A stretch of DNA of 43,634 nt from an uncultured Methanobrevibacter sp. Lineage in GTDB: Archaea > Methanobacteriota > Methanobacteria > Methanobacteriales > Methanobacteriaceae. Below the pieces are notes generated by a model. The model was given only the letters and a program-made list of their open reading frames with translations. It did no database searches and was not told the DNA's origin. Made by a program: the position numbers and the translations under genes. The stretch covers positions 1 to 43,634 of the forward strand of contig OMVY01000021.1 in assembly GCA_900314635.1 (NCBI GenBank), given 5' to 3'. Numbering within the stretch: the stretch's first letter is position 1; every line of letters starts with the position of its first letter. This document shows positions 6,221 through 41,176 of the stretch, piece after piece.

Positions 6221-6546
6221 CTTCTAAAACGAGAAAATTTTTATAAATCTTTTTATGATTTTAAACAAACCCAACTGTTTAAGGTTTAATAAAGGAATAA
6301 TGATTAGTTTATTGATTAAAACAATTAATAAAAAGATTTTTTACAGTAGAAATTTTATTTTACATAATATTTAAAACATTCCATTATGTTAAACCTATTA
6401 TCTGTTAATATATTTAGTAAAAAGAAAAAGCAATAGCTATAAGAAAAAAATTAAAAACTGAAAAAAAGGTTTAAAAACTAAAAAAAAGGTTTAAAAACTA
6501 AAAAAAAGGTTTAAAATTTAAAATTAAAAAAAATAGAAAAAAAGAT
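6221..6546. other. AT-rich intergenic region with a 17-20 nt tandem repeat
   Basis: No gene is seen. It holds the TATA box of the downstream surface gene (TTATAAATC at about 6241-6249, read on the minus strand) and three tandem copies of AAAAAAAGGTTTAAAAACT-like sequence at about 6460-6515. Confidence 0.5.
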
Positions 6547-6548
6547 TA

Positions 6549-6572
6549 AAAAGAGGATAAGAATCCTCTTAT
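6549..6572 (-). terminator. Hairpin terminator after the 1017-aa surface gene
   Basis: On the minus strand AAGAGGAT-TCTT-ATCCTCTT forms a perfect 8-bp stem with a 4-nt loop, followed by a T-rich tail, directly downstream of the stop at 6580. Confidence 0.65.
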
Positions 6573-6579
6573 CTATTAT

Positions 6580-9500: not shown

Positions 9501-9633
9501 CTGCTATCGAATCCGATTCAACACTAGAAATAGCGCTTTGAGAATCCGTTCCACTTGCATCCGCAGCTGATACTGCTGAAATCATAAAGATAAGCAACAA
9601 TAGAGCAACTGCAAGCAATGATTTCTTCTTCAT
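6580..9633 (-). CDS. Large secreted surface protein: Ig-like repeats, two pseudomurein-binding-like repeats, transglutaminase domain
   Basis: This 1017-residue protein has a signal peptide (MKKKSLLAVALLLL...SAVSA), an acidic Ser-rich linker and four Ig-like repeats of about 85-95 residues (about 110-470, each with a GKTYTKTTNSNGRAALK-type motif). Two copies of a module of about 165 residues follow; each contains a pseudomurein-binding-repeat-like segment (VSIDEFSYLMAEAIGNL and SVSIDEFSYLMAQAISEL) and ends YLPxYCTFDSSV. A poly-Ser linker separates them. The C-terminal transglutaminase fold has Cys (ANCCDQ), His (GHVWAQ) and Asp (SADATS). This architecture resembles the methanogen-phage pseudomurein endoisopeptidases PeiW/PeiP (family C71), so wall-bound pseudomurein peptide cleavage or remodelling is plausible. 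The ATG follows GAGGTGA by 10 bases. Nearly identical DNA in the two modules points to recent internal duplication. Confidence 0.88.
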   Translation of the reverse strand: MKKKSLLAVALLLLIFMISAVSAADASGTDSQSAISSVESDSIAESSVDESDSLSVSSDVSEDVSSDASSQEVLTADNSSTIIESSGANDSTSKETVSALQSSEKQSSSISGSGSSVIRGYSYTSALVDSNNKALSGKNITFTISGKNYTITTDSNGKAALPISLAAGTYSLKMAFAGDDDYLASSKTININVLANTPAITTGSTSVVRGYYFYAYLKDKAGKALSGEKLTIKVNGKTYTKTTNSNGRVALKITLPAGSYKMNIYHYASGIYSYASKSVTLKSVANTPSITVADSTVIRGKYLYVYLKDKAGKALSGQKVTFKFNGKTYTKTTNSNGRAALKFTLNAGKYYTQIYHYASGVYAYKKKALTVSVLKNTPKITVSNTTLIKNNNLYFYLKDGAGAAMKSAKLTITLNGKTYTRTTDSNGRASLYVSLAAKSYSLKASYAASSVYSKASISKTLNVINDPSKNSINNILTAASSLKAYVNKNKALPKTVTVGSYSVSIDEFSYLMAEAIGNLNNGNKNAVSIKNNIAANSPMNYTLNAKVYKAQYINLTKEILSFANANNYMPNYATVHNSSNQAVGKAGFGLYTFCFAKILDFYKSEGYLPNYCTFDSSVLSSSSSSSSSSTSNSSSSSSSSSSSSSTSNSSSSSSSSSSGSSTSNSSSSSSSSSSSGSSFTVKDIEAAASNVEAYVNKNKVLPKTVTVGSTSVSIDEFSYLMAQAISELNKGSSASIAHKSLSSNNPVNYTLSATIYKAQYVKTANEILTFVSSNKYMPNYATVYSTSGSSAGKAGFGLYTFCFAKILDFYKSEGYLPKYCTFDSSVFASSSSGSGSSSSSTSANGTVTTANSSQYKAGLNVKSSEGNLDQYLVSSGYATITTAIKNKAASLTKGLTTNAAKATAIFNYVRDNVAYSYYANSKKGADGTLSSGSANCCDQANLVVALCRAAGIPARYSHAQGCAFSSGLVTGHVWAQIYIGGTWYSADATSTRNSLGNIKNWNTNSYYSLKNYATIPF
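7607..7775 (-). repeat. 48-nt minisatellite encoding the Ser-rich linker
   Basis: About three near-identical 48-nt units encode 16-residue runs of the pattern SSTSNSSSSSSSSSSS between the two repeat modules of the 1017-residue surface protein. The opposite strand reads as an open Leu/Glu repeat, which is a shadow. A unit that is a multiple of three lets the linker change length without losing frame. Confidence 0.8.
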
Positions 9634-9689
9634 AAAGATATTTTCACCTCACATTTTTCAGAATCATTTAAATTTAAATTTTAAGTTTA

Positions 9690-9772
9690 GAAAAAAACTC
9701 CTCATTGGAAGAAAATCTAAATTTAAACTAGAAATAAAAATTATCTAAAAAGTGATAGAAAATTTATAAATC
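9690..9772 (-). promoter_or_regulatory. Promoter and leader element of the 1017-aa surface gene
   Basis: The minus strand has a TATA box GATTTATAAATT (9761-9772), giving a predicted leader of about 110 nt. The leader contains one copy (about 9690-9731) of the element found three times in front of the paralogue at 13115-13266, with the same CTCC...(G)GAGAAAATCTAAATT pattern when read on the plus strand. Confidence 0.5.
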
Positions 9773-10689
9773 TAAGATTTTGTATATTCAAATTAAAATC
9801 CATTTCAACAGGATTTTAAATATAATGAATATTAAGTGAAAATCTATTCTGAATATTACAGATAACCTGAATTGGAAAATTCAAGTTAGCTTAGTTTATT
9901 ATTAATTTCTTAACTTATATAAACGTTTCTAATACAAATTATCAAAAACAAGCCATTTAAAGAGATTAAATTAAAAATATCTCACTAAAAATTCTTTATT
10001 TAATTTAATAAGACACAAATTAAATTTAAAATATCTATAAATTAATAAAATAATAAATTAATAAAAAACAAGCAAAAAATAGAAAAAAAATTAAAAAAGA
10101 ATAACTAATGCTTTAACGATTAAAAATAGGATTATAATTACTTTTTTTAATTCAAATTCAAATAATATTAGCTTAATAAATCAAAATTGATTAGATAATG
10201 ATTATTTAACTAAAAAAAGAATAAATATCCATAAAACTACATCGATATAAAGAGCAAAATATTAGACATTTTGTAAAAAATAGTTTACAATATATCTAAA
10301 ATAAAAAACAATGACAAAATAGCATATTTAAGCAAATTAAAAGCAAATAAAGCAAAATTTGTTAAAAACAATGAGTATAAAGCTATTTAGAAAAAATAAA
10401 AATATTAACTATTAAAACAGAACTTTTTACTGAATTTAGTTAAAAAAATTTACAATTTTTTCTAAAAAATTGAGCAGAATGAAATTAAAAAATCACAACC
10501 TAAAAAAATTTAAAAAATGATCTAATGAAAAAAGACATCAAAAAAAGTCCAATCACAATCTAAAAAATTATTAAAAAATGATTTATTAAAAAAAATAGGC
10601 GCCTAAAAAGTCAAATACGAACTAAAAAATTATTAAAAATGATTTATTAAAAAAAAAGTCCAATAATTAAAAAAATAAAAAAAGAAAAA
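9773..10689. other. Long AT-rich intergenic region
   Basis: No gene, tRNA or coherent ORF is seen over about 900 bases. The only structure noted is a set of roughly 60-nt direct repeats at about 10494-10665, annotated separately. Confidence 0.5.
10494..10665. repeat. Three roughly 60-nt direct repeats downstream of the 772-aa surface gene
   Basis: Units starting near 10494, 10553 and 10614 share CTAAAAAATTATTAAAAAATG followed by ATTTATTAAAAAAA, with divergent spacers. They lie just beyond the hairpin terminator of the surface gene and appear non-coding. Confidence 0.55.
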
Positions 10690-10694
10690 AATGA

Positions 10695-10711
10695 AGAGGA
10701 AAAAAATCCTC
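10695..10711 (-). terminator. Hairpin terminator after the 772-aa surface gene
   Basis: On the minus strand GAGGA-(T)7-TCCTC is followed by TTCATTTTTTTC, just downstream of the stop at 10725. Confidence 0.5.
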
Positions 10712-10724
10712 AAAATTTAAGTAC

Positions 10725-13064
10725 TTAAAATGGAATAAGCGCATACTGTTTCAATGTATTGTATGAATTTGTATTCCAATTGTTGATATCACCAAGCTTG
10801 TTTCTGCTGCTTGTAGCATCGGCAGCATACCAGGTATCTCCAACTAAGATCTGCGCCCATACGTGTCCTGTAACAAGACCGCTTGAGAAGGTGCATCCTT
10901 GAGCATGAGAGTATCTTGCAGGAATTCCTGCTGCTCTGCATAATGCCACGACAAGGTTTGCCTGGTCACAGCAGTTTGCAGAACCTGAACTCAATGTTCC
11001 GGAAGCATCTTTTTTACTGTCTGCATAATAACTGTATTCTATACCGTCTCTGACATAGTTGAATATCGCGTTAGCTTTTGCAGCAGTAGTGGTCAGACCT
11101 TTGGTCAGACTGGCCGCCTTGTTTTTAATAGCTTGATTGAGAGCGCAATGTCCTCCGGCTTTCAAATACTGGCTTAAATCAGATACGGTATTCTTCTCAT
11201 TCAAGCCCTTTTTGAAATCACTGGAGTCCGCTGTTGTTACCTTGCCCGGACTGGTATCATTGGAAGGAATAATTGATGTATCATCAAATACATCGCTTTC
11301 AAAGGTACACCAGTTAGGCAGATAGCCATCGGTTCTATAGAAATTCAATATCTTTGCAAAGCAGTATGTGTACAAATCGAAGTTTGCATTTCCAACTTTT
11401 GCCTTGCTGGAATTATAAACCTCAATCTCTGCTGCAGGCACCTTGTTGGTATTTATATGAGATACCACGCGGTTGGCCAGGTCGAGATATTCGGCTTTGA
11501 AAACCTTGGTATTCAAACTGGTATTTGTGCTGTTGACACTGCCAATTCCACTTAAAACGGAAACTTTTCCAGTGCTTCCCTTGTTGAGTGCCGCAATAGC
11601 TTCACCCATAAGATAGGAGAACTCTTCGATTGTTACAGTTTCAGAGCCTACGGTTACAGTTTCAGGCAATTTGCCGTAATCATCCACATAATTTCTGACA
11701 TTTGTTGCAGCCTTTTCAATATTCAATATTGAATTCTTATATGGATCATTTATAACTTTGATGGTCTTGGTAACTGATTTGGAAGAGTATACTGATACCG
11801 CATCGAATGAAATCTTTGTGCTGTATGATTTAGCAGCCATAGATAATTTCAATGCAGCTCTGCCGTTTGAATTGGTTGTTTTAGTATATGTCTTGCCATT
11901 GATTCTTATCTTTACTTTATGGCTTTTCATTACTGAACCTGCCTTGTCCTTCAAATATACATAAAGATATTTGTCTTTAATGACAGTGGCATTTTCAACA
12001 CTAATTTTCGGAGTGTTCTTTTGAACTGTCAAAGTAGCAGATTTCTTTTTATAATCATAAACACCTGATTTGTAATGATAAATCCTTAAACGATATTTGC
12101 CAGCTGCAATTTTAACTTTCAATGCAGCTCTGCCGTTTGAATTGGTTTTCTTGACATATGACCTGCCGTTCAATGTGAAAGTCAATTTCTTGTCACTTAA
12201 AACCTTGCCGGCACCATCTTTCAAGTAGGCGTAAATGTATTTGCCCCTGATAACGCTTTTTGAAGACAAGCTTATCTTAGGAGTGTTCGCCAAGGACTTG
12301 ATGGTAACGGTTTTCTTGGCATAGGAATATATTCCTGATGCGGAATGAACAATATTGACTTTGTATTTTCCCACAGGCAGTTTGATCTTCAATGCAGCCC
12401 TACCATTTGAATTGGTAGTTTTGGTATAAGTCTTGCCATTTACCTTGAAAGTAATTTTTTGTCCTTTCAATGCTTTTCCAGCAGCATCCTTCAAATATGC
12501 ATAGAAGTAATATCCCCTCATGACAGATGTGGATCCTGTTGTAATTTTTGGGGTATTGGCTAAAACTTTCAAGCTGATGCTTTTTGTTGTGCCTGAATAA
12601 TTGTCATCTCCAGCAAAAGCGAGCTTTAAAGTATATGTTCCAGCAGCCAGATTGATTGGAATGGTAATTTTACCATTTGAATCAGTGGTCTTATTATATG
12701 TTTTTCCGGATAAAGTGTATGTAACGACCTTATTGGATAAAGAGACATTATCTGAGTCAGTCAAAGTGGCTGAAATATCATAACCTCTGATAACAGAACT
12801 TGAATTAGTTGTTAGGGAGGTATTCTTTAAAGTCTCGGATTCTGATAGAGAATCGGTGTTATCTGTACTTAAAACTTCATTTTCTGAATTCTCGTCACTT
12901 ACAGATTCTTCATTTGAAACGCTGATTTCTTCAACCGAACTTGTCGTATCTTCTTCCACGGCTGAAGAGTCTTCTCCTGTAGCATCCGCAGCTGATACTG
13001 CTGATATCATAAAGACAAGCAACAATAGAGCAGCTACAAGCAACGTGCCATTCTTCTTTGAAAT
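10725..13064 (-). CDS. Secreted Ig-like/pseudomurein-binding/transglutaminase surface protein with non-ATG start
   Basis: This is a paralogue of the neighbouring 1017-residue protein: signal peptide, acidic linker, four Ig-like repeats, one pseudomurein-binding-like module (VTIEEFSYLMGEAIAAL, then YLPNWCTFESDV) and a C-terminal transglutaminase domain with Cys (ANCCDQ), His (GHVWAQ) and Asp (AADATS). The poly-Ser linker and second module are absent. The start is odd. The ATG of the paralogue is not present; the frame reads ATT-TCA-AAG-AAG-AAT-GGC-ACG-TTG from 13064 after a strong TGAGGTGA site. ATT at 13064 has correct spacing and restores the basic n-region. TTG at 13043 has no ribosome binding site and would remove the Lys residues. 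It is either an AUU start or a gene that has just lost its start codon. Confidence 0.8.
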   Translation of the reverse strand: MSKKNGTLLVAALLLLVFMISAVSAADATGEDSSAVEEDTTSSVEEISVSNEESVSDENSENEVLSTDNTDSLSESETLKNTSLTTNSSSVIRGYDISATLTDSDNVSLSNKVVTYTLSGKTYNKTTDSNGKITIPINLAAGTYTLKLAFAGDDNYSGTTKSISLKVLANTPKITTGSTSVMRGYYFYAYLKDAAGKALKGQKITFKVNGKTYTKTTNSNGRAALKIKLPVGKYKVNIVHSASGIYSYAKKTVTIKSLANTPKISLSSKSVIRGKYIYAYLKDGAGKVLSDKKLTFTLNGRSYVKKTNSNGRAALKVKIAAGKYRLRIYHYKSGVYDYKKKSATLTVQKNTPKISVENATVIKDKYLYVYLKDKAGSVMKSHKVKIRINGKTYTKTTNSNGRAALKLSMAAKSYSTKISFDAVSVYSSKSVTKTIKVINDPYKNSILNIEKAATNVRNYVDDYGKLPETVTVGSETVTIEEFSYLMGEAIAALNKGSTGKVSVLSGIGSVNSTNTSLNTKVFKAEYLDLANRVVSHINTNKVPAAEIEVYNSSKAKVGNANFDLYTYCFAKILNFYRTDGYLPNWCTFESDVFDDTSIIPSNDTSPGKVTTADSSDFKKGLNEKNTVSDLSQYLKAGGHCALNQAIKNKAASLTKGLTTTAAKANAIFNYVRDGIEYSYYADSKKDASGTLSSGSANCCDQANLVVALCRAAGIPARYSHAQGCTFSSGLVTGHVWAQILVGDTWYAADATSSRNKLGDINNWNTNSYNTLKQYALIPF

Positions 13065-24640: not shown

Positions 24641-24997
24641 TTAAAATTTTATTGACTGAACTCGATTGAGAGGAACTTTAGCCAATTTAGAAACCTGTTC
24701 AGCACTTAAACCACTTTCTAATAAATTTTGAATAATTTCCATTCGACCCTGTTCTACTTTTTCCTTGCCATATAATTCAAAATAATAACTGCTTTCCATA
24801 TTTATCAACTCAAAAATTCTTCTTTTCCTGTTATTATTTGAGACAAACTTATCAACCAGCACAATAAGACCACACTTAAGAGCATCTAATCGGCCATCAT
24901 CACTATCCTTGACCTTGTTCACCAAACTACAAACATCCCACAAAACCTTGTCAATTTTGTTATCAGACTTCATAAAAGGAAGAACAGACAATATCAA
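24641..24997 (-). CDS. Rpn-type nuclease C-terminal fragment (copy C)
   Basis: This 118-residue frame corresponds to the C-terminal half of the 25456 gene: SVLPFMKSDNKIDKVLWDVC, the FELINMESSYYFELYGKEK segment, then a different tail, LSAEQVSKLAKVPLNRVQSI. The PD-(D/E)XK catalytic part is missing. Only TTG starts are available and no ribosome binding site is clear, because the unit begins at the duplication junction TTTAAGACAAGGATTATTTG. The family is known as Rpn (recombination-promoting nuclease/putative transposase). Confidence 0.5.
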   Translation of the reverse strand: MILSVLPFMKSDNKIDKVLWDVCSLVNKVKDSDDGRLDALKCGLIVLVDKFVSNNNRKRRIFELINMESSYYFELYGKEKVEQGRMEIIQNLLESGLSAEQVSKLAKVPLNRVQSIKF

Positions 24998-25023
24998 ATA
25001 ATCCTTGTCTTAAATTAAATAGA

Positions 25024-25422
25024 TTAAAATTTAACAGATTTTATTTGATTAATAGGCACTCCAGTCCATTTAGAGATTAATTCAACATTAACTCCATCAT
25101 TTAATAAATTTTGAATTACTTCTTGAGCTTTTTCATCACGACCTTCTTTATGTCCTTTTTCTAATCCTATTTCAATACCCTGTTCTACTTTTTCCTTGCC
25201 ATACAATTCATAAAAATAACTACCTTCCATCTTTATCAACTCAAAAATTCTTCTTTTCCTGTTCTTATTTGAGACAAACTTCTCCACCAGCACAATAAGA
25301 CCCCATTTAAGAGCATCCAGACGCTTGTCATCACCATCCTTGACCTTGTTCACCAAACTGCAAACATCCCATAGAACCTTGTCAATTCGCTCATCAGACC
25401 TCATAAAAGGAATAACAGACAA
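25024..25422 (-). CDS. Rpn-type nuclease C-terminal fragment (copy D)
   Basis: This 132-residue frame begins SVIPFMRSDERIDKVLWDVC and includes a KEKVEQGIEIGLEKGHKEGR helix-forming insert of the type common near Rpn C-termini, followed by VNVELISKWTGVPINQIKSV. It lacks the nuclease motifs. The start would be TTG at 25422 just after the junction TAAGACAACC, with no good ribosome binding site. It may be silent, or it may be an RpnS-like short product. Confidence 0.5.
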   Translation of the reverse strand: MSVIPFMRSDERIDKVLWDVCSLVNKVKDGDDKRLDALKWGLIVLVEKFVSNKNRKRRIFELIKMEGSYFYELYGKEKVEQGIEIGLEKGHKEGRDEKAQEVIQNLLNDGVNVELISKWTGVPINQIKSVKF

Positions 25423-25455
25423 TTTTAAATAAAGGTTGTCTTAAATTAAGATAGA

Positions 25456-26328
25456 TTAAAATTTAAAAGATTTAATTTGATTAATAGGTACTCCAGTCCA
25501 TTTAGAGACTAGTTCAACACTAACACCATCCTTTACTCCAGTCCATTTAGAGACTAGTTCAACACTAACACCATCCTTTAGTAAATTTCGAATAACTTTG
25601 TCAGCCATTTCAGCACGACCCTGTTCTCTTTCTTCCTTGCCATACAATTCATAAAAATAACTACCTTCCATCTTTATCAACTCAAAAATTCTTCTTTTCC
25701 TGTTATTATTTGTCACAAACTTCTCCACCAGCACAATAAGACCCCATTTAAGAGCATCTAATCGGCCATCATCACTATCCTTGACCTTGTTCACCAAACT
25801 ACAAACATCCCACAAAACCTTGTCAATTTTGTTATCAGACCTCATAAAAGGAATAACAGATAATTTCAAATAATCCTTGTCTGAAAGTTCCTTATTTTGT
25901 TTTATTTTTAATTTAATATCATTTAAAGCTTTCTTTTCGCTGAATTCTTTAAACGATTTGACATGCATAGTAAACCAACTGTCTAAAGCGAAATTATCGC
26001 AAACGGTTTCATTTTTCTCGGCATGAGTGCTGACAACGATGGTTAAAACCTTTTTTCCATATTTTTCCCTTGCTTTTTGTGCATATTCATGAAATTGATC
26101 TATCTTCTTTTGATTGAGAGCAGTTGAGAGGAATTCAATATTTATCAATATGCCACAGCAAGTTTCCGCTAGGAAATCCATTCGAATGGACCTGGCACTG
26201 TTTACAACGATTTCACTATTCAAGATCTTTTTGATTCTATAATCATAGCCAAAGCATCAAAGCAAATCATTAATATACATTTCCGTCAGAGATTTCATAT
26301 ATTTGTCTTCATATTTGTTGAAATCCAT
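25456..26328 (-). pseudogene. Full-length Rpn-family PD-(D/E)XK nuclease with in-frame TGA
   Basis: From ATG 26328 the frame reads MDFNKYEDKYMKSLTEMYIN, DLL, then TGA (26259-26257), and continues in the same frame as CFGYDYRIKKILNSEIVV to the end at 25456. The catalytic region RMDFLAETCCGILINIEF retains Asp and Glu of the PD-(D/E)XK core. The middle and C-terminal parts match the shorter copies downstream. The C-terminus carries a 45-nt tandem duplication. With the TGA the protein can only be made by readthrough or from an internal start (track-like start at 26223). Rpn proteins in E. coli are DNA endonucleases acting in recombination and phage defence. Confidence 0.7.
25490..25579 (-). repeat. 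Exact 45-nt tandem duplication in the Rpn C-terminus
   Basis: Two identical 45-nt copies (25490-25534 and 25535-25579) encode KDGVSVELVSKWTGV twice in frame. The repeated peptide is a short helix-turn-helix-like tail found at the end of many Rpn proteins. Confidence 0.9.
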
Positions 26329-29650: not shown

Positions 29651-30465
29651 TTATTTATAAAACATATTATGAATTTTTTCTTCTAACCATTTTCCAATGG
29701 ACTTTTTAAAGAAATTAAAGTACAAGAATCTATATCCTTTTCTTAAAAATACATTGTTTGATATGGCCATTCTGAATTTCAAGTCATTTCCCAAATAATA
29801 AACTGGACATTCCTTGACTTTTAGCCTGTTTTTTTCTATCCAAACATTGAAAATAGCTTCAGATATTAATCCAAATACACGAGGATACTCTTCCACGTTT
29901 ATCCTGTTTTCAACTTCTTCAAGAATAGGAAAAACCCAGGAGCAATAATCATTCACTATTTCCTTGGAAGCTATGAACATGTTGTAGTTAGAAAAGCTGG
30001 ACTGATTCAACATTCTATCAAAAGTTTCCAAAAATTCTTCTGATTTATCTGCCAAGACATCTCTAGTTATTTCCAAAGCAGGATATAAATAATGACCTTC
30101 ATAGGTTTCCCAGTAAGATCCCTTTATTAATTCAGTTTTTTCAGGAAGAATCATGTCATATCGCTAAGGTAATCTAGAATTTCATCTTTTTCAATTAATT
30201 TTCCATTTTTACCTTTGAAATAACGCCTGTAATGACATAATCCAATTACATCTGCATCAGAAGCTTTCCACATCCAATAAAGACCAGTCAATTCACAGTA
30301 ATCTTTGTTTTTTGAAGATATGTTTCCTTCAAAACGGTCATCACTACAGAAACCTAAATTATCCTTACCATTTCTGCCTACAAACAAAGGAGTGTAGATT
30401 TCATCATTTCTAATGGTTTTAATATCTTCTTCACTTTGTGAGACAACATACAATTGAATTTTCAT
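29651..30465 (-). pseudogene. DUF4422 glycosyltransferase, split by a one-base frameshift
   Basis: Two frames together cover a complete DUF4422 protein of about 270 residues. The N-terminal part (30465-30151, MKIQLYVVSQSEEDIK... GLCHYRRYF) ends LSDMT-stop; the C-terminal part (30154-29651, MILPEKTELIKGSYWETYEG) carries on. The intact paralogue at 31461 reads RDYDIILPKKT across this point. Restoring one A on the plus strand between 30160 and 30161 gives LSDYDMILPEKTE. So a single-base deletion, or a sequencing error, splits the gene. The ATGA overlap of the two frames is a by-product. Confidence 0.8.
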
Positions 30466-30651
30466 AATTTTTACCTATTTTTAATATTTAATTTTTGTAT
30501 ATACTTTTGAGCTGAAACTAGATATCTAATCATTGAATTCCTTGTCTAAAAACATGAATAATCAGACTTAGAAACTTTTTCCAATATTATGTGGTTTTGA
30601 CAGATTTCCATTCTTTTTATCTGAAAATATAACTTTAATAGACTCATAAGA

Positions 30652-31434
30652 TTAATCTATCATTTTTTGTTTTAAATAAATATAATAATAGATATATGCA
30701 AAGATTTGAGAATCATTTATCAAATTAGCCAAATTACTTGATTTAGCATCCAGAAATTTGATATAAAACTCTTTAGTTTTGAATTTAAAATGTTTAATGT
30801 AAACATATAATAAAATTTCAGCTATATAGCCTATCACACGTTTATTTTTTAAATTATTTGCATTATACAAAGCCTCTTCCAAATAAAATAAAAATTTGAA
30901 TAAGAACTCACAGTAATCATCTAGCCACTCTTTTGAAGATATGAAAAGAGAATAAGCATACATCTCACGGTCATTCAAAACTTCATCATAGGTATCACTA
31001 TATTCTGGATAGAATTTATGAAAGGCATCTCTAGCTATATTCATATCTTCCTTTGTAACATGAATTCTAAAATTTTCATAAAGGGTTTTAGCTAATTTCT
31101 TTTTCTTGTAAACAATGACATCATGATTTTCTAAGGCATGAAGTATTTGCTCTTTTTCTAATAGCTTCCCTCTACCCAGATATCCATTTGCAAAAACTCT
31201 TCTATAATGGTTTAAGCCAACAATATCTGCTTGACTATTTTTCCAAATCCAGTATAAACCTGTAAATTCAGAATAATCTTGGTTCTTTTCGGAAATATTA
31301 TCTCCTACATCATCCCTTAAATAACCATAAGTCTCCTTATTCGCTGCACCAACAAAAAGAGGCTTATAAATGTCGTTTTGAGTAATGTCATATTGTTTAT
31401 GAGTAACAACATAAATTTTAACGTCTTTTTCTAT
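30652..31434 (-). CDS. DUF4422 glycosyltransferase lacking a canonical start codon
   Basis: An uninterrupted frame runs from a stop just upstream (TAA, 31455-31453) to 30652. It encodes the whole DUF4422 domain: VKIYVVTHKQYDI, IYKPLFVGAANKETYGYL, FTGLYWIWKNSQADIVGLNHYRRVF, then the divergent C-terminal half. The first ATG is at 31044, in the middle of the domain. The codon that aligns with the start of the paralogues is ATA (31434-31432), five bases after the strong site AAAGGGGGAG. Either AUA initiates, or the gene has recently lost its ATG. The gap to the upstream DUF4422 gene is 26 bases, so they are co-transcribed. Confidence 0.75.
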   Translation of the reverse strand: MEKDVKIYVVTHKQYDITQNDIYKPLFVGAANKETYGYLRDDVGDNISEKNQDYSEFTGLYWIWKNSQADIVGLNHYRRVFANGYLGRGKLLEKEQILHALENHDVIVYKKKKLAKTLYENFRIHVTKEDMNIARDAFHKFYPEYSDTYDEVLNDREMYAYSLFISSKEWLDDYCEFLFKFLFYLEEALYNANNLKNKRVIGYIAEILLYVYIKHFKFKTKEFYIKFLDAKSSNLANLINDSQIFAYIYYYIYLKQKMID

Positions 31435-31460: not shown

Positions 31461-32261
31461 TTAACGCCTCATATCCTTATGGAGCAAACCCATATAAATA
31501 TGAATATAAGCCCATCTTACAATAGCTCTTTTTACAATCCACATATGAACATTAAGTCTTAATCCATTTACTTTAAGTTCACATTCTTTTACTCTTAGAT
31601 TTTGCCTATCCATCCAGACATCAAAGAGACGTTCTGTTAAAAATCCATAAATTCTTTTTTGATAATCATCATATCCAGTCATGTCCACTCTCTTTTCCAC
31701 TTCAGCAAGTATTGGAAATACCCAATCACAATAAGGAGCAATGACTTCCTTAGGTGCTATAAACATGTTGTAGTAATAAAGATCCTTGCCCTCAACAACT
31801 CTTTTGTAGCTGTCTAAGTATTCGGGGCATTGTTCTCCAATTACCTCTTCACATAAATCAAGGTCTTTAGCATAGTTCCAGTGGTCATAATCCTCATAAA
31901 CTGAACCTAATAGGGCAGTGGTCTTTTTAGGAAGAATTATGTCATAATCCCTGAATATTTCTTCCAGGTCATCACGTTCCAGTCTTTTTCCAAGTCTCCA
32001 TTTTGCAAAGTATCTTCTGTAGTGCACAAGACCTATAATGTCTGCAGGACTGTTTTTCCACATCCAGTAAAGACCAGTAAGCTCACAATAGGAAGAATTC
32101 TTATTTGATATGTTATCTCCGGTATCATCACTGAGAAAACCAAAATTATCCTTCCCATCCCTACCAACAAAAAGAGGAGTGTAAATATCGTTTGCATCTA
32201 TGTCCTTTATATCATCCACACTATGAGAAACAACATAAACTTGAATATTTGAACTTTCCAT
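31461..32261 (-). CDS. DUF4422-domain glycosyltransferase (intact copy)
   Basis: This 266-residue protein shows the DUF4422 pattern: IQVYVVSHSVDDIKDI, IYTPLFVGRDGKDN, CELTGLYWMWKNSPADIIGLVHYRRYF and a central YYNMFIAPKEV. DUF4422 proteins are found in capsule and surface-polysaccharide clusters and are regarded as glycosyltransferases. ATG follows AAAGGAATTAAATC. It is the first and best preserved of three tandem paralogues and lies downstream of UDP-galactopyranose mutase, which hints at a galactofuranosyl donor. That link is inference. Confidence 0.82.
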   Translation of the reverse strand: MESSNIQVYVVSHSVDDIKDIDANDIYTPLFVGRDGKDNFGFLSDDTGDNISNKNSSYCELTGLYWMWKNSPADIIGLVHYRRYFAKWRLGKRLERDDLEEIFRDYDIILPKKTTALLGSVYEDYDHWNYAKDLDLCEEVIGEQCPEYLDSYKRVVEGKDLYYYNMFIAPKEVIAPYCDWVFPILAEVEKRVDMTGYDDYQKRIYGFLTERLFDVWMDRQNLRVKECELKVNGLRLNVHMWIVKRAIVRWAYIHIYMGLLHKDMRR

Positions 32262-33697: not shown

Positions 33698-34810
33698 TCA
33701 GGATTTAAACCTCAAAAGCAATCCAATAAATCCTAAAATCATCCTGTATTTGATTCCAGGCTTCTTGCCTTTTTTTAACAAACCAATTTCCTTTTTGAAT
33801 TCCAAATTGTCTTTCCTGGTATTGTCCCTGCTTAAATATAAACTGATCCAATTCAAAAGATAAGGATTTAAAAAGAGATCCTTGTTCTTGATTCCATACT
33901 CATCACAAATCTCTGAAGCCATCCTATAAGCCTTTAGGGAATCATCCACAAGTCTGAAATTAATATTCTTGGTAATTGACTTCTCCTCCTCTTCAAGCCG
34001 CATGTAATAATTATAAACAACCTTGTCATTGATAAAAAGGATTCCATCGGCATTAAATGAAGCGAGAAGAAGGAAATTCAAATCTTCAGCTGAAACGAAT
34101 GGAGGAAACTCAATATCATTATCCAGAATCAGACTTCTTTTATAAATCTTCGTCCAGAATGAAGGAAGTATCTTGAAAACAGCTATGTCCTCTTTATTCT
34201 CAAGCTTCAAGTCCTTTATGAATATCTCATGATTATCATCTCTTTTAATGGATCTTCCATAAAAGAAATAGCTGATGAAATATCTCCAAAGGAAACCTGA
34301 TAATCCGCTAATATTGCTTCCATTTACAAGATCATCCAGATAAGGCACATCCAGAGTTTCCACATATGGAGTATATGACTTTCGAACAATATTCTTCTCA
34401 GGATAATGGCGAAGGTATCTTCCAAAGGCAATATCGCAATCGTATTCATTTATTTTATTATAAAGAATCTCACAAGCATCCTCTTCAAATGAGTCATCAG
34501 CATCAAGAAACATCAGATAATCCGCGCTTGCATGTTGAAGGGCAATGTTACGAGGTCCGTATGCCCCACCGATGTTTTCATCCAAGTGAATGGTAATGAT
34601 ATTGGAAGAGCAGGATTCATTAGAAACAGAATTTTCCATTTTGAATTCTTCAATAATCTCCTTGGAATTGTCACGGGAACAATCATTTACTATTATCACT
34701 TCAAGATTTTCAAATCCTATTGTCTGGTTTAAAAGAGAGTCAAGAGCATTCTTCAAATACTTTTCTCCATTATAAACAGGAATGATGACGCTTATTTTGT
34801 ACTGGCTAAT
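33698..34810 (-). CDS. Family 2 glycosyltransferase
   Basis: The GT-A fold opens with YKISVIIPVYNGEKYLKNAL and has the nucleotide-sugar/metal motif MFLDADDSFE. Total length is about 370 residues, with a C-terminal extension seen in many surface-glycan GT2 enzymes. The start is unclear. TTG at 34825 has no ribosome binding site. GAGGG (34821-34817) lies six bases before ATT at 34810-34808, which would give the ordinary N-terminus (M)SQYKISVIIP. This is the first gene of the glycan operon. A TATA box (about 34921-34932) drives it divergently from the radical SAM gene. Confidence 0.85.
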   Translation of the reverse strand: MSQYKISVIIPVYNGEKYLKNALDSLLNQTIGFENLEVIIVNDCSRDNSKEIIEEFKMENSVSNESCSSNIITIHLDENIGGAYGPRNIALQHASADYLMFLDADDSFEEDACEILYNKINEYDCDIAFGRYLRHYPEKNIVRKSYTPYVETLDVPYLDDLVNGSNISGLSGFLWRYFISYFFYGRSIKRDDNHEIFIKDLKLENKEDIAVFKILPSFWTKIYKRSLILDNDIEFPPFVSAEDLNFLLLASFNADGILFINDKVVYNYYMRLEEEEKSITKNINFRLVDDSLKAYRMASEICDEYGIKNKDLFLNPYLLNWISLYLSRDNTRKDNLEFKKEIGLLKKGKKPGIKYRMILGFIGLLLRFKS

Positions 34811-34920
34811 GGTAATCCCTCGCAATCTTGAAATTAATCATGAAAAATAATCGAATAACTTTTAATAAAAGTATGGTTCTTATTGAATTTATTTTTATTT
34901 GTATCAAATTAATAATTATT

Positions 34921-34960
34921 TAAATTTATATAATACTAAATTTAAAATATAGTTTATATA
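34921..34960. promoter_or_regulatory. Divergent TATA boxes: glycan operon and radical SAM gene
   Basis: The minus-strand box TTATATAAATTT (34921-34932) faces the GT2 gene. The plus-strand box GTTTATATAAAA (about 34952-34963) faces the radical SAM-ATPase gene. They are some 20 bases apart, so initiation on one side may interfere with the other. Confidence 0.5.
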
Positions 34961-35019
34961 AAATTACATAAAAAGATTTGTAAAAAATCTTGTTTTACTT
35001 AAAAATTCTGATGATAAAT

Positions 35020-37635
35020 ATGAAAATTCTATTCTTAAACCTGCCATACAAATTCAACATAAGCCGTGCAAGCAGATGGCCGGAAAAGACAAAGTCAGGA
35101 ACATTGTACTATCCATACTGGCTTGCATACTGTGTTGGAGTCTGCCAGAGGGAAGGCCATGACTGCAAATTAGTGGACTGCATAACAAAGGCATACACAA
35201 CCGAGGACACAATCGAAGAAGTGAAATCATTTGCCCCTGATTACATAATGGCCGAGATAACAACCCCTACATGTGCTTATGACTATGAAGTGATAAACGC
35301 CATAAAAGCTGCTTATCCAAGTGCAAAAATCCTTATTGGAGGAACCCATGCCACAATACTGCCTGAAGAGGTATTAAGAGCATGCGAGGGAATCGATTAC
35401 ATTTTAAGACAGGAATACGACTACACAGTTGGGGAAATAATCGAAACAGGTGATATTTCAAAGGTCAGAGGAGTTTCCTATCGAGTAAACGATGAAGGAG
35501 AAGACATATCAAATTTAAAGGACTATGACCTTTCTCAAGGCTATGAAGTCGCACACACAGAAGACAGAGAGCCTTTGGATGACCTGGACTCCCTGCCATA
35601 TGTCTCCAAGGTTTATCAGGAATTCTTGAACTTCGATGATTATGCCTATGCATTTGCCCAGAAGCCGATGATACAAATCGTATCTTCACGAGGATGCCCG
35701 AACCAGTGCAACTTCTGCAGCTATCCTTCAACAATGGGAGGAAGAATATACAGAACCCGAAGCGTGAAGGACCTGGCTGATGAATTCGAATACATCCTGA
35801 AGGAAATCCCTCAAATCAAGGAGATCTTCATTGAAGACGACACATTCACAGTAGACCAGAACAGAGTCATCGATTTCTGCGATGAAATCATCAAAAGAGG
35901 CCTCAAACCAGTATGGAGCTGCAATACAAGAGTCGACCTTAAATTCGAAACAATGCAGAAGATGAAGGATGCAGGATGCAGGCTGCTTGTCTGCGGATAT
36001 GAATCCGGAAATCAGGATGTCCTCAATCAAATCAAGAAGGGAATCACCCTCGAACAGTCAAGAGCCTTTGCAGAAAACGCCAGAAAACTTGACATAAAGG
36101 TCTTCGGATGCTTCATGATAGGCCTCACTGGAGACAATCTGGATACAATCCAGGAAACATACAAGTTTGCACAAAGCGTTTATCCAGACATGTGCTTCTT
36201 CCAGCAGTCAGTTCCATTTCCTGGAACAGGATTCTACGAATGGGCCAAGAAAAATGGCTACCTGATTACAGAAGACTATTCCAAATGGCTAAATGAAGAC
36301 GGCTATCTCAACTGCCTGGTTGATTATCCTTATGCAGACCACAAGGAAATTGAAAAGCTGAGGGACGACCTCATGAGCAAGTACTACTTCTCTTTTGCCT
36401 ATATTGTGAAGACTTTCCTTGCAAATCTGGATTGGACGGAATTCAAGAGGGTCATGCGCGGAGGAACACAATACATCAGCTTCAGTAAACTGCATAAAGG
36501 AATGGAAAAAATGTTAAAACTATCCCTGATCAATTTCGGACCAATCGATGAGGCTGCAATAGAAATAAAGCCCCTCACCATCATAAAAGGGACCAACAAC
36601 ACTGGAAAAACAATGATATTGAAACTAATAAATTCATTGAACTCAGTCATAAACAACCAGCATCCAGAACTCAATAGCTCAAAATTAAGTTTTACAGCAG
36701 CCACAATTTTAAAAAACAGCATAAATCAGGAGTTCTTCAACGATTTCATGAGCGGATTCATAGAGTACATTAATACAAATCCTTCCATCGATTCAGAACC
36801 TTTCAAAATACGAATGGAAGACTTCGACATGCTATACAAGGAGGGAATACAGAATCTTGCAAACATATGCCTCTCTCAAAAGCTTGAAAACACATATCAC
36901 ACCAGAATTGAAGATTTGATTAAATCAGACAAGAGAGAAAAAATAGAAAACGGAACAGAAGACTTCAAATTCTCATACAGAAACACAAGCTATGAGAACA
37001 CACAGATTGAAAACTTCCCCTACATAAACATCGACCTTGAAAGCGGCAATGAACCCCTCTTGTCAATCCACTTTGAAGATGAAGTTGAAGTGAGGATGAA
37101 CTCCGAATACATAGACTCACTGAATGGAAGGGACTATGATTTCTATTTCATATTCTTTTACTCAAATTTCGCAAAGACCGTCCTGAACAAGATCTTTGAA
37201 ACTTCAACCTCATATTTCCTGGATGAATTGAATGAAGATTTTGCCAAATTCATACTGGACAATAATATCAAATCTCCGCTTTATGAAATTGGATTAGATT
37301 TGGAAAAGGATGTTTTAAACACACACTTAGTCAAGGAAAATGATAGTCTTTACTATAAAACAGGATCTGATTTGATTAATACATCATTGGCATCAGATTC
37401 TTTGAAGAAATTATCAAATATAGTCTTCCACATCAAGCATGTGATAAATTCCGGAGATTATCTAATCATCGATGACATTGAGAATCATCTTGATAAAAAA
37501 AGCATATGCATTCTGGCCGAATATCTCTCCAAGGCAAGTGAGAATGGAGTGAATGTTGTCTTAAGCACACACAGCGATCATGTGGTGGAAGAGTTTGAAA
37601 AGCATTCAAAAGACTTGAATGCATATTACCTGTGA
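35020..37635 (+). CDS. B12-binding-type radical SAM enzyme fused to an SMC/OLD-like ATPase
   Basis: The frame encodes about 871 residues. Residues 1-200 form a cobalamin-binding-like Rossmann domain, and 215-480 a radical SAM domain with CPNQCNFC (Cys226, 230, 233), the layout of BchE/HpnJ-like methyltransferases and related enzymes. From about residue 495 a second protein starts without a stop: LSLINFGPIDEAAIEIKPLT, Walker A GTNNTGKT (524-531), Walker B-like YLIIDDIENHLD and the switch LSTHSDH, as in AAA_15/AAA_21 ATPases of the OLD/RecF/SMC type. I chose ATG 35020 (MKILFLNLPYKFN). ATGs at 36502 and 36511, after AAAGGA, could start the ATPase separately. The first half is visibly less AT-rich than the second. 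A gene fusion is the simplest reading. Confidence 0.8.
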   Translation: MKILFLNLPYKFNISRASRWPEKTKSGTLYYPYWLAYCVGVCQREGHDCKLVDCITKAYTTEDTIEEVKSFAPDYIMAEITTPTCAYDYEVINAIKAAYPSAKILIGGTHATILPEEVLRACEGIDYILRQEYDYTVGEIIETGDISKVRGVSYRVNDEGEDISNLKDYDLSQGYEVAHTEDREPLDDLDSLPYVSKVYQEFLNFDDYAYAFAQKPMIQIVSSRGCPNQCNFCSYPSTMGGRIYRTRSVKDLADEFEYILKEIPQIKEIFIEDDTFTVDQNRVIDFCDEIIKRGLKPVWSCNTRVDLKFETMQKMKDAGCRLLVCGYESGNQDVLNQIKKGITLEQSRAFAENARKLDIKVFGCFMIGLTGDNLDTIQETYKFAQSVYPDMCFFQQSVPFPGTGFYEWAKKNGYLITEDYSKWLNEDGYLNCLVDYPYADHKEIEKLRDDLMSKYYFSFAYIVKTFLANLDWTEFKRVMRGGTQYISFSKLHKGMEKMLKLSLINFGPIDEAAIEIKPLTIIKGTNNTGKTMILKLINSLNSVINNQHPELNSSKLSFTAATILKNSINQEFFNDFMSGFIEYINTNPSIDSEPFKIRMEDFDMLYKEGIQNLANICLSQKLENTYHTRIEDLIKSDKREKIENGTEDFKFSYRNTSYENTQIENFPYINIDLESGNEPLLSIHFEDEVEVRMNSEYIDSLNGRDYDFYFIFFYSNFAKTVLNKIFETSTSYFLDELNEDFAKFILDNNIKSPLYEIGLDLEKDVLNTHLVKENDSLYYKTGSDLINTSLASDSLKKLSNIVFHIKHVINSGDYLIIDDIENHLDKKSICILAEYLSKASENGVNVVLSTHSDHVVEEFEKHSKDLNAYYL

Positions 37636-37674: not shown

Positions 37675-38223
37675 TTAAAGCAATTTCAATTCCTTTAAAA
37701 AATATTTCAAAGAAGTGTTTCTCTCTACAGCTTTATCAAAATCAAAGTCCCTACATATCTGCTCCATGAATTCCAATTTAGAATTAAATTTAGTGGATTT
37801 TCTTATCATCTCCTCAAAATCCTCTTTGCTGATATCATCAGTACAATCGGGAATCTCAAATTCAGAATATATATCTTTTGCATCATCAATTCCAGATAAA
37901 TACCAGCTTTCTATTTCTTCAACCACTATGAAAATCTTTTCATAATCCAAGTCAGGATATATGTCCTGACAATGCTTAATCTTTTCTTTAAATGAGGAAT
38001 AATTCACAGAATCCAAATCTGCAAGAAATACATAATTCATATTGTTTGATTTAGCATATCTAACAATATTGTTTTTTATATCGGCATTTTTACGCTGCTG
38101 GTAAGGAATAACAAATATCTTACATTTGTTCCCATATTTTTCATATAATTTAGGAACAATCAAATTTTCAAAAAATCGCTTATCATCACTCCCCTCTACA
38201 AAAATATAAAATAATTTAAACAT
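37675..38223 (-). CDS. TOPRIM-like nuclease-type protein (OLD/AbiL/RloB-like partner)
   Basis: The 182-residue protein begins KLFYIFVEGSDDKRFFENLI, with Glu10 in a TOPRIM-type VEG motif, followed by VFLADLDSV (Asp69, Asp71), the DxD pair expected of TOPRIM metal sites. A later EEIESWYLSG motif is typical of small TOPRIM proteins encoded beside AAA ATPases (DUF4276/DUF4435-like; I cannot tell which). In known defence systems (split OLD, AbiL, PARIS) such proteins are nucleases or toxins held by the ATPase. It follows the 404-residue ATPase gene by 182 bases. ATG is preceded by CTGGTGATTAG. It converges on the radical SAM-ATPase gene. Confidence 0.7.
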   Translation of the reverse strand: MFKLFYIFVEGSDDKRFFENLIVPKLYEKYGNKCKIFVIPYQQRKNADIKNNIVRYAKSNNMNYVFLADLDSVNYSSFKEKIKHCQDIYPDLDYEKIFIVVEEIESWYLSGIDDAKDIYSEFEIPDCTDDISKEDFEEMIRKSTKFNSKLEFMEQICRDFDFDKAVERNTSLKYFLKELKLL

Positions 38224-38405
38224 CTAATCACCAGAAAAATTTAGAAAAGTTGAAAATAATAAAGAGAGATTGATCTAAAAAGAATCAAAAAACAATGATA
38301 AAAGCTACAAAAGATAAGTAAATTTAAAAAAAATACTGAAATGGAATATGAATAAAAATTAAATTTAAAAGATGCAAAATCAATAAAAATTCAATTATTA
38401 AAAAA

Positions 38406-39620
38406 TCAAATATTCAAGATTCCATTCAGATACAAGTCTTCAATACCCATTTCCTTTAGAAAATCCGCAATGTATTCCTCATCAGCAGGTTTTGAAACTG
38501 TGGAAAATCCCTCCATATCTCTGCAGATACAGTAAATATCATCATCATGAGACTGTCTTAAAAATTCAGCGCTGTGAGTCGCAACAAAGATCTGTTTTTT
38601 CAAGGAAACCTCCTCCATCATTTCAATAAGACTCAAAATCATATTGGGATGAATGTTTCTCTCAGGTTCCTCAATGAAAATAAAATTATTGTTTTCAAAA
38701 TATAATGCTATGATTAAAGCAATCATATTGCTTGTCCCATCTGAAATAAACGAGGAAGGAAAGTGATTTTTAGAAAAATTCTCACTTAAATTAAAAGCCA
38801 TGGAACTGTCTGCGAATTTTTCCACCTCAACATCACCAACAAAAGGCATCAAAACATTCAACAAGTTCATGAACTCTCTTTTTCGAGTATTTAAAATGTT
38901 TTTCAGGATTATGGCAAGATTATCACCATTTTCGCTTAAATAGGACTTATCAAAATTTTTTGTAATGCTTTTTGATTTTAAAGGGTCGAAATTATAAAAG
39001 TTAAAATCAAACAAAAGCAAAGCCCATGGAAATGGGAGATTGGCAAGTGGACTGTGCAATAGTGTGAAATAAGAATCCTTTGAAGACATTTCATTAATCA
39101 GATTCAATAATTGAAGGGGAATTATGTCTTCAACCATTATCTCATGGCTTGTTCGTAAAAAAGATTTAATCATTCCTTGAGAGTTGACAATAGTCAATAC
39201 ATCTTCACATAATAATGACTCCCTCTTGAAAAATCTGCAATGAAATTCCACTTTTTCACTTAGAACTTTGATATCATCATTAGAGAAATCCAATTCCAAA
39301 TTGTAAATTATTGAATCTGATTCAATTGCAATCTTCTCGTTTTCATCAATCAAGCTTGAAAATCTGCCATTATAATCAAATAATAGCTTGATGCTTAAAA
39401 CATCATTATCCAAATTCACATTGGTAATGTATTTGCTTCCTCCCTGCTTATAGACAGCCCTATACAAACCATTCTTGGAAATATCTTTTAAGAATCTGAA
39501 TATTTCAAAAAAATTGGATTTACCTGAAGCATTAGGACCAATCATCACATTGAATCTATTGAATCTGGTTTTAAAATATTTGAAACTTTTAAAGTTCTTC
39601 ACTTCCATCTCAGACAGCAT
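38406..39620 (-). CDS. AAA_21-type ATPase (RecF/OLD-like), putative defence ATPase
   Basis: This 404-residue protein begins MLSEMEVKNFKSFKYFKTRF. Walker A is GPNASGKS (28-35), the signature-like region FISDGTSNMIALIIAL comes before Walker B FIFIEEPERNIHP, and the switch is VATHSAEFL. This order is typical of AAA_21 ATPases found in abortive-infection modules. The TOPRIM-like gene is immediately downstream on the same strand, and the orphan small-protein gene is 68 bases upstream, so the three may be one transcript. ATG follows AGGAGATAAATC, a strong site. Confidence 0.85.
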   Translation of the reverse strand: MLSEMEVKNFKSFKYFKTRFNRFNVMIGPNASGKSNFFEIFRFLKDISKNGLYRAVYKQGGSKYITNVNLDNDVLSIKLLFDYNGRFSSLIDENEKIAIESDSIIYNLELDFSNDDIKVLSEKVEFHCRFFKRESLLCEDVLTIVNSQGMIKSFLRTSHEIMVEDIIPLQLLNLINEMSSKDSYFTLLHSPLANLPFPWALLLFDFNFYNFDPLKSKSITKNFDKSYLSENGDNLAIILKNILNTRKREFMNLLNVLMPFVGDVEVEKFADSSMAFNLSENFSKNHFPSSFISDGTSNMIALIIALYFENNNFIFIEEPERNIHPNMILSLIEMMEEVSLKKQIFVATHSAEFLRQSHDDDIYCICRDMEGFSTVSKPADEEYIADFLKEMGIEDLYLNGILNI

Positions 39621-39688: not shown

Positions 39689-39994
39689 TCATCTATTTAA
39701 AAATATATAAATTCTCTCAAAATTCAATGAAATATTATTTTTATCGCAAAAATCGCAAAAATCATCAGTAACTTTTAAAGTTAAATCAAGTAATTCATCG
39801 CTAGATACTTCTTTTTTAACTCTGAAAAAATATTCCACATCAATTCCTTCAATTTTAGAAGGATTTATAAAAGTACAGGATAAAACATTTTCATATTTCA
39901 GAACTATCACATCTTGACAATATTCTAAAACAACACCATAACTATCTAAAGGCTTTGAAAATTGCCTTTTAAATAAATTTTCAGTGTCTTCCAT
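39689..39994 (-). CDS. Small protein of unknown family, copy 1 (heads the ATPase-TOPRIM group)
   Basis: The frame is open for 129 residues, but ATG at 39994 is preferred: TGGGGTATTTT precedes it, giving 101 residues (MEDTENLFKRQFSKPLDSYG). The sequence suggests a beta-beta-alpha-beta fold: VLSCTF, GIDVEYFFRV, a helix DELLDLTLKVTDDFCDFC, and ERIYIFLNR. No known motif is recognised. It is about 60-65% identical to the copy at 40787. A HEPN gene follows that copy, whereas here the ATPase follows. Its TATA region is less perfect than that of copy 2. Confidence 0.6.
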   Translation of the reverse strand: MEDTENLFKRQFSKPLDSYGVVLEYCQDVIVLKYENVLSCTFINPSKIEGIDVEYFFRVKKEVSSDELLDLTLKVTDDFCDFCDKNNISLNFERIYIFLNR

Positions 39995-40078
39995 AAAATA
40001 CCCCATTAAACTTTTCTTAAAATGATTATATCCAAAATTACTTAAATATTTTTGCTTTAAATAGAAATAAAATAACAA

Positions 40079-40349
40079 ATAAAGATTATTTTAACAAATA
40101 AATACTAATTTGACAAATAAATACAAATTTAACAATTTAAAATCAATATTGCTCTAGATTAAGAAAATAATTTCAAGTTATAAAAAATAATTTAAAGACG
40201 ATTTTAATAATTTAAATTGTAAAAATAGTCTATTTTTCATTATTAATAAATATTTTCAATCAAAATCAAAAAACAATAACAAAACGAGCATATTTTCACA
40301 TATAGTAAACCATACATTAAAAAAATTGAAAAAAAGGAAAAATTATCCA
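40079..40349 (-). repeat. Conserved leader, copy 1
   Basis: About 270 nt upstream of small-protein copy 1 are roughly 90% identical by eye to 41177-41440 upstream of copy 2. The copy ends in a palindrome with one mismatch, TATAGTAAACCATA (40301-40314), and its TATA box is altered (TATATGTGAAAA on the minus strand). There is no ORF. Confidence 0.7.
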
Positions 40350-40361
40350 TCAACAAAAAAA

Positions 40362-40781
40362 TTATTTTAAAGTTCTAATAATATAATCAGAAAAATCAAA
40401 CAGATCATCCAAGGAAAATTTGTAGCGGTCAGGCAAATAACTATAAAATTCATTATTCAACTCATAATCACAATAATGACGATTATTTTTAAGAGAAGTT
40501 AACCTGTCCTTAAGATTTATCTTAATATTCATTGGAAAAGATGTATGAACCATTATAAATTCTGGAACATGATAATGGTCCCCAGTACCCCTGGACTCAT
40601 AATCAGTTTCCAATATTAACCATTCCCTAGCATGTAAAAATGCAGCATAATATAATCTGCTGACAATGGTTCTCTTGATGGAAGATTCATTTGAATCAAG
40701 ACCGTTCATTTTCATATATAACTCTTTAGAAAGCTCAAAAAAGTTTATTGGTTCAAAAGAGTTAAAATCATCACCATACAT
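40362..40781 (-). CDS. HEPN/UPF0332-like protein, putative toxin or RNase
   Basis: The 139-residue protein contains SRLYYAAFLHAREWLI, which matches the first-helix signature of UPF0332/HEPN proteins (SRAYYAAFHAARALL), and ends its core with LKNNRHYCDYELN, the counterpart of the RxKADY segment. HEPN proteins are often RNase toxins in toxin-antitoxin and defence systems; the canonical Rx4-6H catalytic motif is not clearly present, so activity is uncertain. ATG at 40781 is preferred, with CGGTGA five bases upstream overlapping the stop codon of the preceding gene. The pair is therefore translationally coupled, as toxin-antitoxin genes usually are. Confidence 0.65.
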   Translation of the reverse strand: MYGDDFNSFEPINFFELSKELYMKMNGLDSNESSIKRTIVSRLYYAAFLHAREWLILETDYESRGTGDHYHVPEFIMVHTSFPMNIKINLKDRLTSLKNNRHYCDYELNNEFYSYLPDRYKFSLDDLFDFSDYIIRTLK

Positions 40782-40786
40782 GAAAA

Positions 40787-41092
40787 TCACCGGTTAACAA
40801 TTATATAAACTCTTGCAAAATCTATTGGAATCCTGTTTTTCTCGCAAAAATCACAGAAATCATCATGGACTTTGGTGGTTAGATCATTCAACTCTTTAGA
40901 AGATACTGTATCCATAACTTTAAAATAGTATTCAACATCAATTCCCTCAAGCGGAGACTGTTGGAAAAAAGTACAGGACAAAACATTTTCATATTTCGGA
41001 ACTATCACATCTTGGCAATATTTTAAAACTAAATTATGACTATCTTGAGGACTTGATAATTGCCTTTTAAATAAATTTTCAGCTGTTTCCAT
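40787..41092 (-). CDS. Small protein of unknown family, copy 2 (partner of the HEPN gene)
   Basis: ATG at 41092 follows GAGGCGTTTT and gives 101 residues (METAENLFKRQLSSPQDSHN); the frame is open upstream to 41176 but that part overlaps the leader. Its features are KYENVLSCTF, GIDVEYYFKV, a helix SSKELNDLTTKVHDDFCDFC and ARVYIIVNR. Its position just before and coupled to a HEPN gene is that of an antitoxin or regulator. It is not an MNT nucleotidyltransferase: no GSxxxxxxDxD motif is present. A 275-nt leader with TATA box and palindrome lies upstream. Confidence 0.65.
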   Translation of the reverse strand: METAENLFKRQLSSPQDSHNLVLKYCQDVIVPKYENVLSCTFFQQSPLEGIDVEYYFKVMDTVSSKELNDLTTKVHDDFCDFCEKNRIPIDFARVYIIVNR

Positions 41093-41176
41093 AAAACGCC
41101 TCATTAAACTTTTCTTAAAACGATTATATTCAACATTACTTAAATATTTTTGCTTTAAATGAAAATAAAATAACAA

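Follow-up and report, generated by a model that had tools for sequence, protein, structure and literature searches.

A single uninterrupted reading frame of 871 amino acids (positions 35020-37635, plus strand) is present in an uncultured Methanobrevibacter sp. (assembly GCA_900314635.1), whose genome is a 36-contig draft of 2.29 Mb that is 97% complete. The window analysed here is the whole of one contig (OMVY01000021.1, or C36; 43,634 bp). Three Pfam domains are encoded in the frame, all scoring over their cut-offs: B12-binding (residues 25-139), Radical_SAM (220-384) and AAA_21 (519-856). An earlier note on this DNA described an in-frame fusion of a B12 radical SAM enzyme to an ATPase, and as one open frame this fusion is real. 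An in-frame TTG upstream, at 34990, is unsupported as the start codon because the orthologs of the enzyme begin with MKILFLNLPY.

The N-terminal part of the protein (residues 1-488; 35020..36483, plus strand) corresponds to the conserved part of an HpnJ-like cobalamin-binding radical SAM enzyme, as judged by Pfam, TIGR03471 and orthologs. Its place in the B12-binding radical SAM superfamily is indicated by scores of 65.7 bits for PF02310 and 77.2 bits for PF04055, and by a CX3CX2C cluster motif read from the translation (C226, C230 and C233; 35695-35718, plus strand). The HpnJ model TIGR03471 matches with an E value of 9.7e-119 and 397.3 bits, but the enzyme is not certified as HpnJ because the curated cut-off is 577.6 bits, a score that is passed in none of 152 genomes of the phylum. 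The protein resembles HpnJ and the HpnJ-like proteins of Methanobacteriales in its full-length match to the model, its two domains, its cluster motif and its adjoining glycosyltransferase, but differs from the HpnJ-like proteins in having an ATPase in place of the C-terminal tail. Furthermore, the host is to our knowledge an archaeon without known hopanoids, unlike the setting of HpnJ. Thirteen same-genus genomes encode stand-alone orthologs that share 84-89% identity across about 489 residues, and the orthologs of three further genera are also free-standing (67-74% identical). The enzyme is changed at 2 of 263 invariant positions, and dN within the genus is 0.08-0.11, with dS mostly saturated. 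This half of the protein should still perform an HpnJ-like B12/radical-SAM reaction.

Identity to the orthologs stops after F488, where SKLHKGMEKMLKLS stands in the position at which orthologs have RIKKALNKSDNLD and a stop codon. All enzyme orthologs close with a YIxFR(I/V/L/A)KK motif. Within the genus the C-terminus reads GGTQYIxFR.KK.L..SDNLD followed by the stop (R-[IVL]-KK-x-L-x-x-S-[DN]-N-L-D-stop from the arginine onward), and most of these orthologs terminate 14-15 residues past the equivalent of F488. The ortholog stop is visible in 12 of the 13 same-genus genomes, and the contig of the thirteenth breaks off inside the conserved tail. Comparison of ortholog C-termini with the DNA places six junction codons (SKLHKG; 36484..36501, plus strand) where this tail would be. 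The junction carries an out-of-frame TAA (36486-36488) and ends in AAAGGA (36496-36501), and behind it are the ATGs at 36502 and 36511 to which the earlier note had drawn attention. In the two other frames, stops occur 1 and about 11 codons past the conserved end. A search of the alternative frames near the junction and past the stop revealed neither the ancestral enzyme tail nor the missing C-terminus of the ATPase. The proposed end of the radical SAM part near residue 494, like that of free-standing relatives, was correct to within about 10 residues. However, loss of an intergenic stop is too simple an account of the fusion because the C-terminal tail of the enzyme has also been replaced.

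The remainder of the frame (36502..37635, plus strand) encodes a PD-T4-4_A-like ABC-type ATPase, as assigned by PADLOC, AAA_21, an alignment with nine Methanobacteriaceae homologs and AlphaFold2. The best named family is PADLOC PD-T4-4_A (PDLC04033, E value 2e-21), with the C-terminal profile positions unmatched. The SMC/OLD-like label originally given to this ATPase holds at the superfamily level, but not more narrowly. SMC_N reaches 15-18 bits against a cut-off of 40, and the chain terminates immediately behind the ATPase core. Unlike the ABC-ATPase heads of Rad50, SMC, PtuA and OLD proteins, the window ATPase has no coiled-coil arms (its model is without a long coiled-coil insertion), no hinge and no C-terminal TOPRIM domain. 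The alignment bears out the claim that the ATPase part opens with the usual N-terminus of its family (LSLINFGPI...PLTI). The natural start of the ATPase is probably the ATG at 36511, located 9 nt after AAAGGA, with the ATG at 36502 as an alternative.

Compared with the gene A proteins (AAA_15/AAA_21) of PD-T4-4, an anti-phage system, the window copy retains the family N-terminus, an intact Walker A (GTNNTGKT; 36589..36612, plus strand), the serine of the signature region and an intact H-loop (STHS; 37564..37575, plus strand), all seen in the alignment. In contrast, its Walker B (LIIDD; 37462..37476, plus strand) has Asp in place of the catalytic Glu, which is present as [E/D]E in all 69 scored homologs and is likewise retained by other Methanobacteriaceae homologs from a full-protein search. 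Only 23 residues separate the start of the H-loop from the end of the protein, versus 84-106 in homologs, and about 75 C-terminal residues are missing relative to about 70 homologs. As the alignment shows, the window ATPase has also lost the YYIPAE motif region together with an internal segment. The earlier view that both halves look complete thus fails for each of them, since the enzyme has lost its last 14-15 residues and stop, and the ATPase is short at its C-terminus and internally. Of the 26 alignment columns in which the remaining family members are at least 90% conserved, the window ATPase violates 11 (next worst 4, median 1), although the homolog set was fetched by Walker-B and H-loop patterns, which biases 2 of these 11 columns toward conservation. 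In a phylogenetic tree, the protein is nested in the Methanobacteriaceae PD-T4-4_A-like clade (100/99), and its terminal branch measures 2.14 versus a median of 0.86.

Full-length homologs of this ATPase are mostly 430-540 amino acids long and are found in Methanobacteriaceae and widely in bacteria. A small gene of 159-182 amino acids lies directly 3' of the A gene in most of the Methanobacteriaceae loci inspected. No PD-T4-4 partner gene B lies beside the window ATPase, and 39 nt beyond its stop codon is the end of a convergent HEC-01B-like gene. The window copy matches the A-gene profile, but it is without the full catalytic motif set and the companion B gene, and it differs further from its relatives in being fused behind a metabolic enzyme. 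Another Methanobrevibacter carries a PD-T4-4_A-like ATPase that is interrupted by stop codons (L077:3412-4856, minus strand; the same locus as L108), with identity of up to 57% over 40 residues and 42% over 76. This broken copy suggests that this branch of ATPases decays repeatedly.

Despite these losses, the ATPase tail is not clearly dead. The chance that its frame of 374 codons would stay open is about 7e-13 given shuffled composition, and the other five frames over the ATPase half contain 15-37 stops. Codon periodicity is strong (GC1 0.38, GC2 0.25, GC3 0.43), and this GC3 value is nearer that of resident genes (0.49 for the radical SAM part) than that of the adjacent AT-rich downstream island genes (0.28-0.34). 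AlphaFold2, using 39 sequences, predicts a core with a pLDDT of 83 and a pTM of 0.82 that ends just past the last core strand. The best Foldseek matches of this model are SMC heads, Rad50 and the PtuA proteins of retron/Septu systems, with TM-scores mostly of 0.3-0.45, and no sequence match to the ATPase half was obtained in a search of solved structures. Together, the open frame, periodicity, host-like GC3, motifs and predicted core suggest that the tail has been kept and not merely left to rot, and both recent decay and a change of function fit these data. The tail is coding and is predicted to fold, yet the features on which its family relies for hydrolysis and partnership are gone.

The fusion is unique among the genomes searched. 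In a TIGR03471 scan of the phylum that used one genome per species (152 in total), full-length matches fell in open frames of 481-527 amino acids, whereas the window frame measured 883, and this was the only HpnJ-like open frame longer than about 530 amino acids. A radical-SAM domain was fused to none of about 70 wider homologs of the ATPase. The N-terminal extensions of three homologs (L095, with 418 amino acids, L171 and L164) were considered as radical SAM candidates and rejected by eye as low-complexity or GC-rich frame extensions. The ATPase was found in none of the 18 other genomes of the genus. The earlier note had envisaged relatives that carry the two genes apart with a stop at this place, and this arrangement exists in part: the enzyme stands alone and ends in a stop, but the second gene is not adjacent.

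In relatives within the genus, the gene order is GT2 (minus), hemD-like (minus), radical SAM (plus), membrane protein (minus), cobA-like (minus), then purQ, purS and purC. The hemD, cobA and purQSC genes of the window genome are located on contig C25 without the GT2 and radical-SAM genes. This pair now resides on C36, flanked by a UDP-galactopyranose mutase block on one side and a defence-like cluster before glmS on the other, and therefore it must have moved. Scanning the window for Rfam families and tRNAs revealed no hallmarks of insertion, and a scan for sigma-70-type promoters, a model not suited to archaea, yielded matches at chance level. In most relatives within the genus, and also in two further genera, the GT2 gene adjoins the enzyme gene or is one gene away from it. 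That the GT2 and HpnJ-like genes (33698-36483 in the window) are neighbours across genera and relocated together suggests that they serve one pathway. Given this recurrent neighbourhood and the HpnJ-like family of the enzyme, its chemistry would involve a glycolipid or glycan carrier, and the substrate is probably a lipid or carrier that is glycosylated with the help of the adjacent glycosyltransferase. A precedent by analogy for such glycolipid-type chemistry is calditol synthase, a ring-contracting radical-SAM enzyme of archaea that acts on a hexose-lipid substrate (PMC9385802).

We consider it somewhat likely that the frame arose by a lineage-specific, accidental gene fusion that left a working enzyme with a tail probably inactive in defence. 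Based on synteny, the GT2/radical-SAM pair would have left its ancestral place between the hemD-like and cobA-like genes and landed in a variable, defence-rich region beside glmS. At relocation or later (the order of these events being conjectural), the enzyme would have lost its last 14-15 codons and stop, such that the reading frame passes through about six leader codons into a PD-T4-4_A-like ATPase copy that is intact upstream and shortened at its 3' end. The product would be one protein of about 100 kDa. Given the off-frame stops 1 and about 11 codons on, the deletion of one base could have been enough for the final step in opening the frame. The earlier note left the choice between a chance fusion and a deliberate coupling open, and the evidence now favours chance: the fusion occurs in a single genome, relatives have only the enzyme with a stop, the ATPase is absent from the rest of the genus, the pair has relocated and key ATPase residues are lost. 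Unequal constraint on the two halves, with 2 of 263 invariant sites changed in the enzyme and 11 of 26 conserved columns changed in the ATPase, also speaks for this reading. The coupling of the halves is very probably accidental, even though the fully open, codon-periodic ATPase frame with host-like GC3, Walker A, H-loop and predicted core speaks against an accident. Because the ATPase no longer has its catalytic Glu, C-terminal element or partner gene, and because the fusion is not conserved beyond one genome, we prefer to view the tail, presumably a folded head that binds nucleotide, as probably a tolerated passenger and not an active defence ATPase.

Three other explanations deserve consideration. 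It is unlikely that the fusion is an assembly or base-call artefact, in which the cell has two separate genes and a stop is concealed by a base missing near 36484 or by a misjoin. The off-frame stops noted above mean that a base-call error would mimic a fusion, since gaining or losing one base would break the frame in two, and the window is one whole contig of a 36-contig draft. However, stops are common in AT-rich off-frames and thus are weak evidence, and there is no homopolymer at the junction. A repeat-driven misjoin is unlikely because the 261-bp junction stretch has only chance-length repeats in the genome; the best match (28 bp at 89%, on contig C17) lies inside an unrelated 72-amino-acid frame and was taken as chance.

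It is rather more doubtful that transcripts from the radical-SAM promoter also yield a separate ATPase, with translation starting internally at the ATG at 36511. An AGGA located 9 nt 5' of this ATG and the natural family N-terminus that begins there are consistent with two products, but a short Shine-Dalgarno-like match in purine-rich sequence is weak evidence, and the damaged motifs speak against a need for the ATPase in either form.

A selected, functional fusion, in which an ABC head that hydrolyses ATP slowly or not at all now serves the radical-SAM enzyme as a nucleotide-binding or dimerising module, seems improbable: the open, codon-periodic frame with host-like GC3, the compact predicted fold closing at the last core strand and the accelerated divergence (which a change of function would explain as well as relaxation would) would agree with it, but the fusion is confined to a single genome, no conserved fusion was found anywhere searched, orthologous enzymes work without an ATPase tail, and conserved residues are lost in the D-loop, Walker B and signature neighbourhood. 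Most improbable of all is its fullest form, a two-domain protein whose defence-derived ABC head, impaired in hydrolysis, senses nucleotide or dimerises an envelope or glycolipid radical-SAM enzyme and so makes envelope chemistry responsive to infection or energy state. A functional tail would represent a new mode of radical-SAM enzyme regulation, although nothing we found requires this. If the fusion is accidental, rearrangement of a defence island can weld a decaying immune ATPase onto a conserved metabolic enzyme, and fusions seen in single genomes should be read with caution as signs of a functional link.

Several other features were observed in the window. Downstream of the fusion is a HEC-01-like candidate defence pair (37675-39620, minus strand), comprising an AAA_21 ATPase (38406-39620) and a DUF4276/TOPRIM-like protein (37675-38223). 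Contig C8 carries another pair of this kind (L091:4752-6561), and the two ATPases are 38% identical. We found no paper on HEC-01 in the literature. Next to the window pair (39689-41176, minus strand), two similar 129-amino-acid ORFs (39689-40078 and 40787-41176) surround a weakly HEPN-like ORF (40362-40790), and this region resembles a toxin-antitoxin-like unit of two genes that has been duplicated. Elsewhere, DUF4422 glycosyltransferase genes are split or truncated (29651-31044, minus strand; 29651-30154 with 30151-30465, and 30652-31044) and adjoin an intact gene of this type (31461-32261). The C-terminal part of one protein exists in three tandem partial copies (VLWDVCSLVNKVKD; 24641-26223, minus strand), which were probably left behind by a repeated mobile or Rpn-like gene. 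Finally, the region 4583-13043 (minus strand) encodes three paralogous surface proteins that combine Ig-like repeats with a transglutaminase-like core, and two of the three also have pseudomurein-binding repeats.
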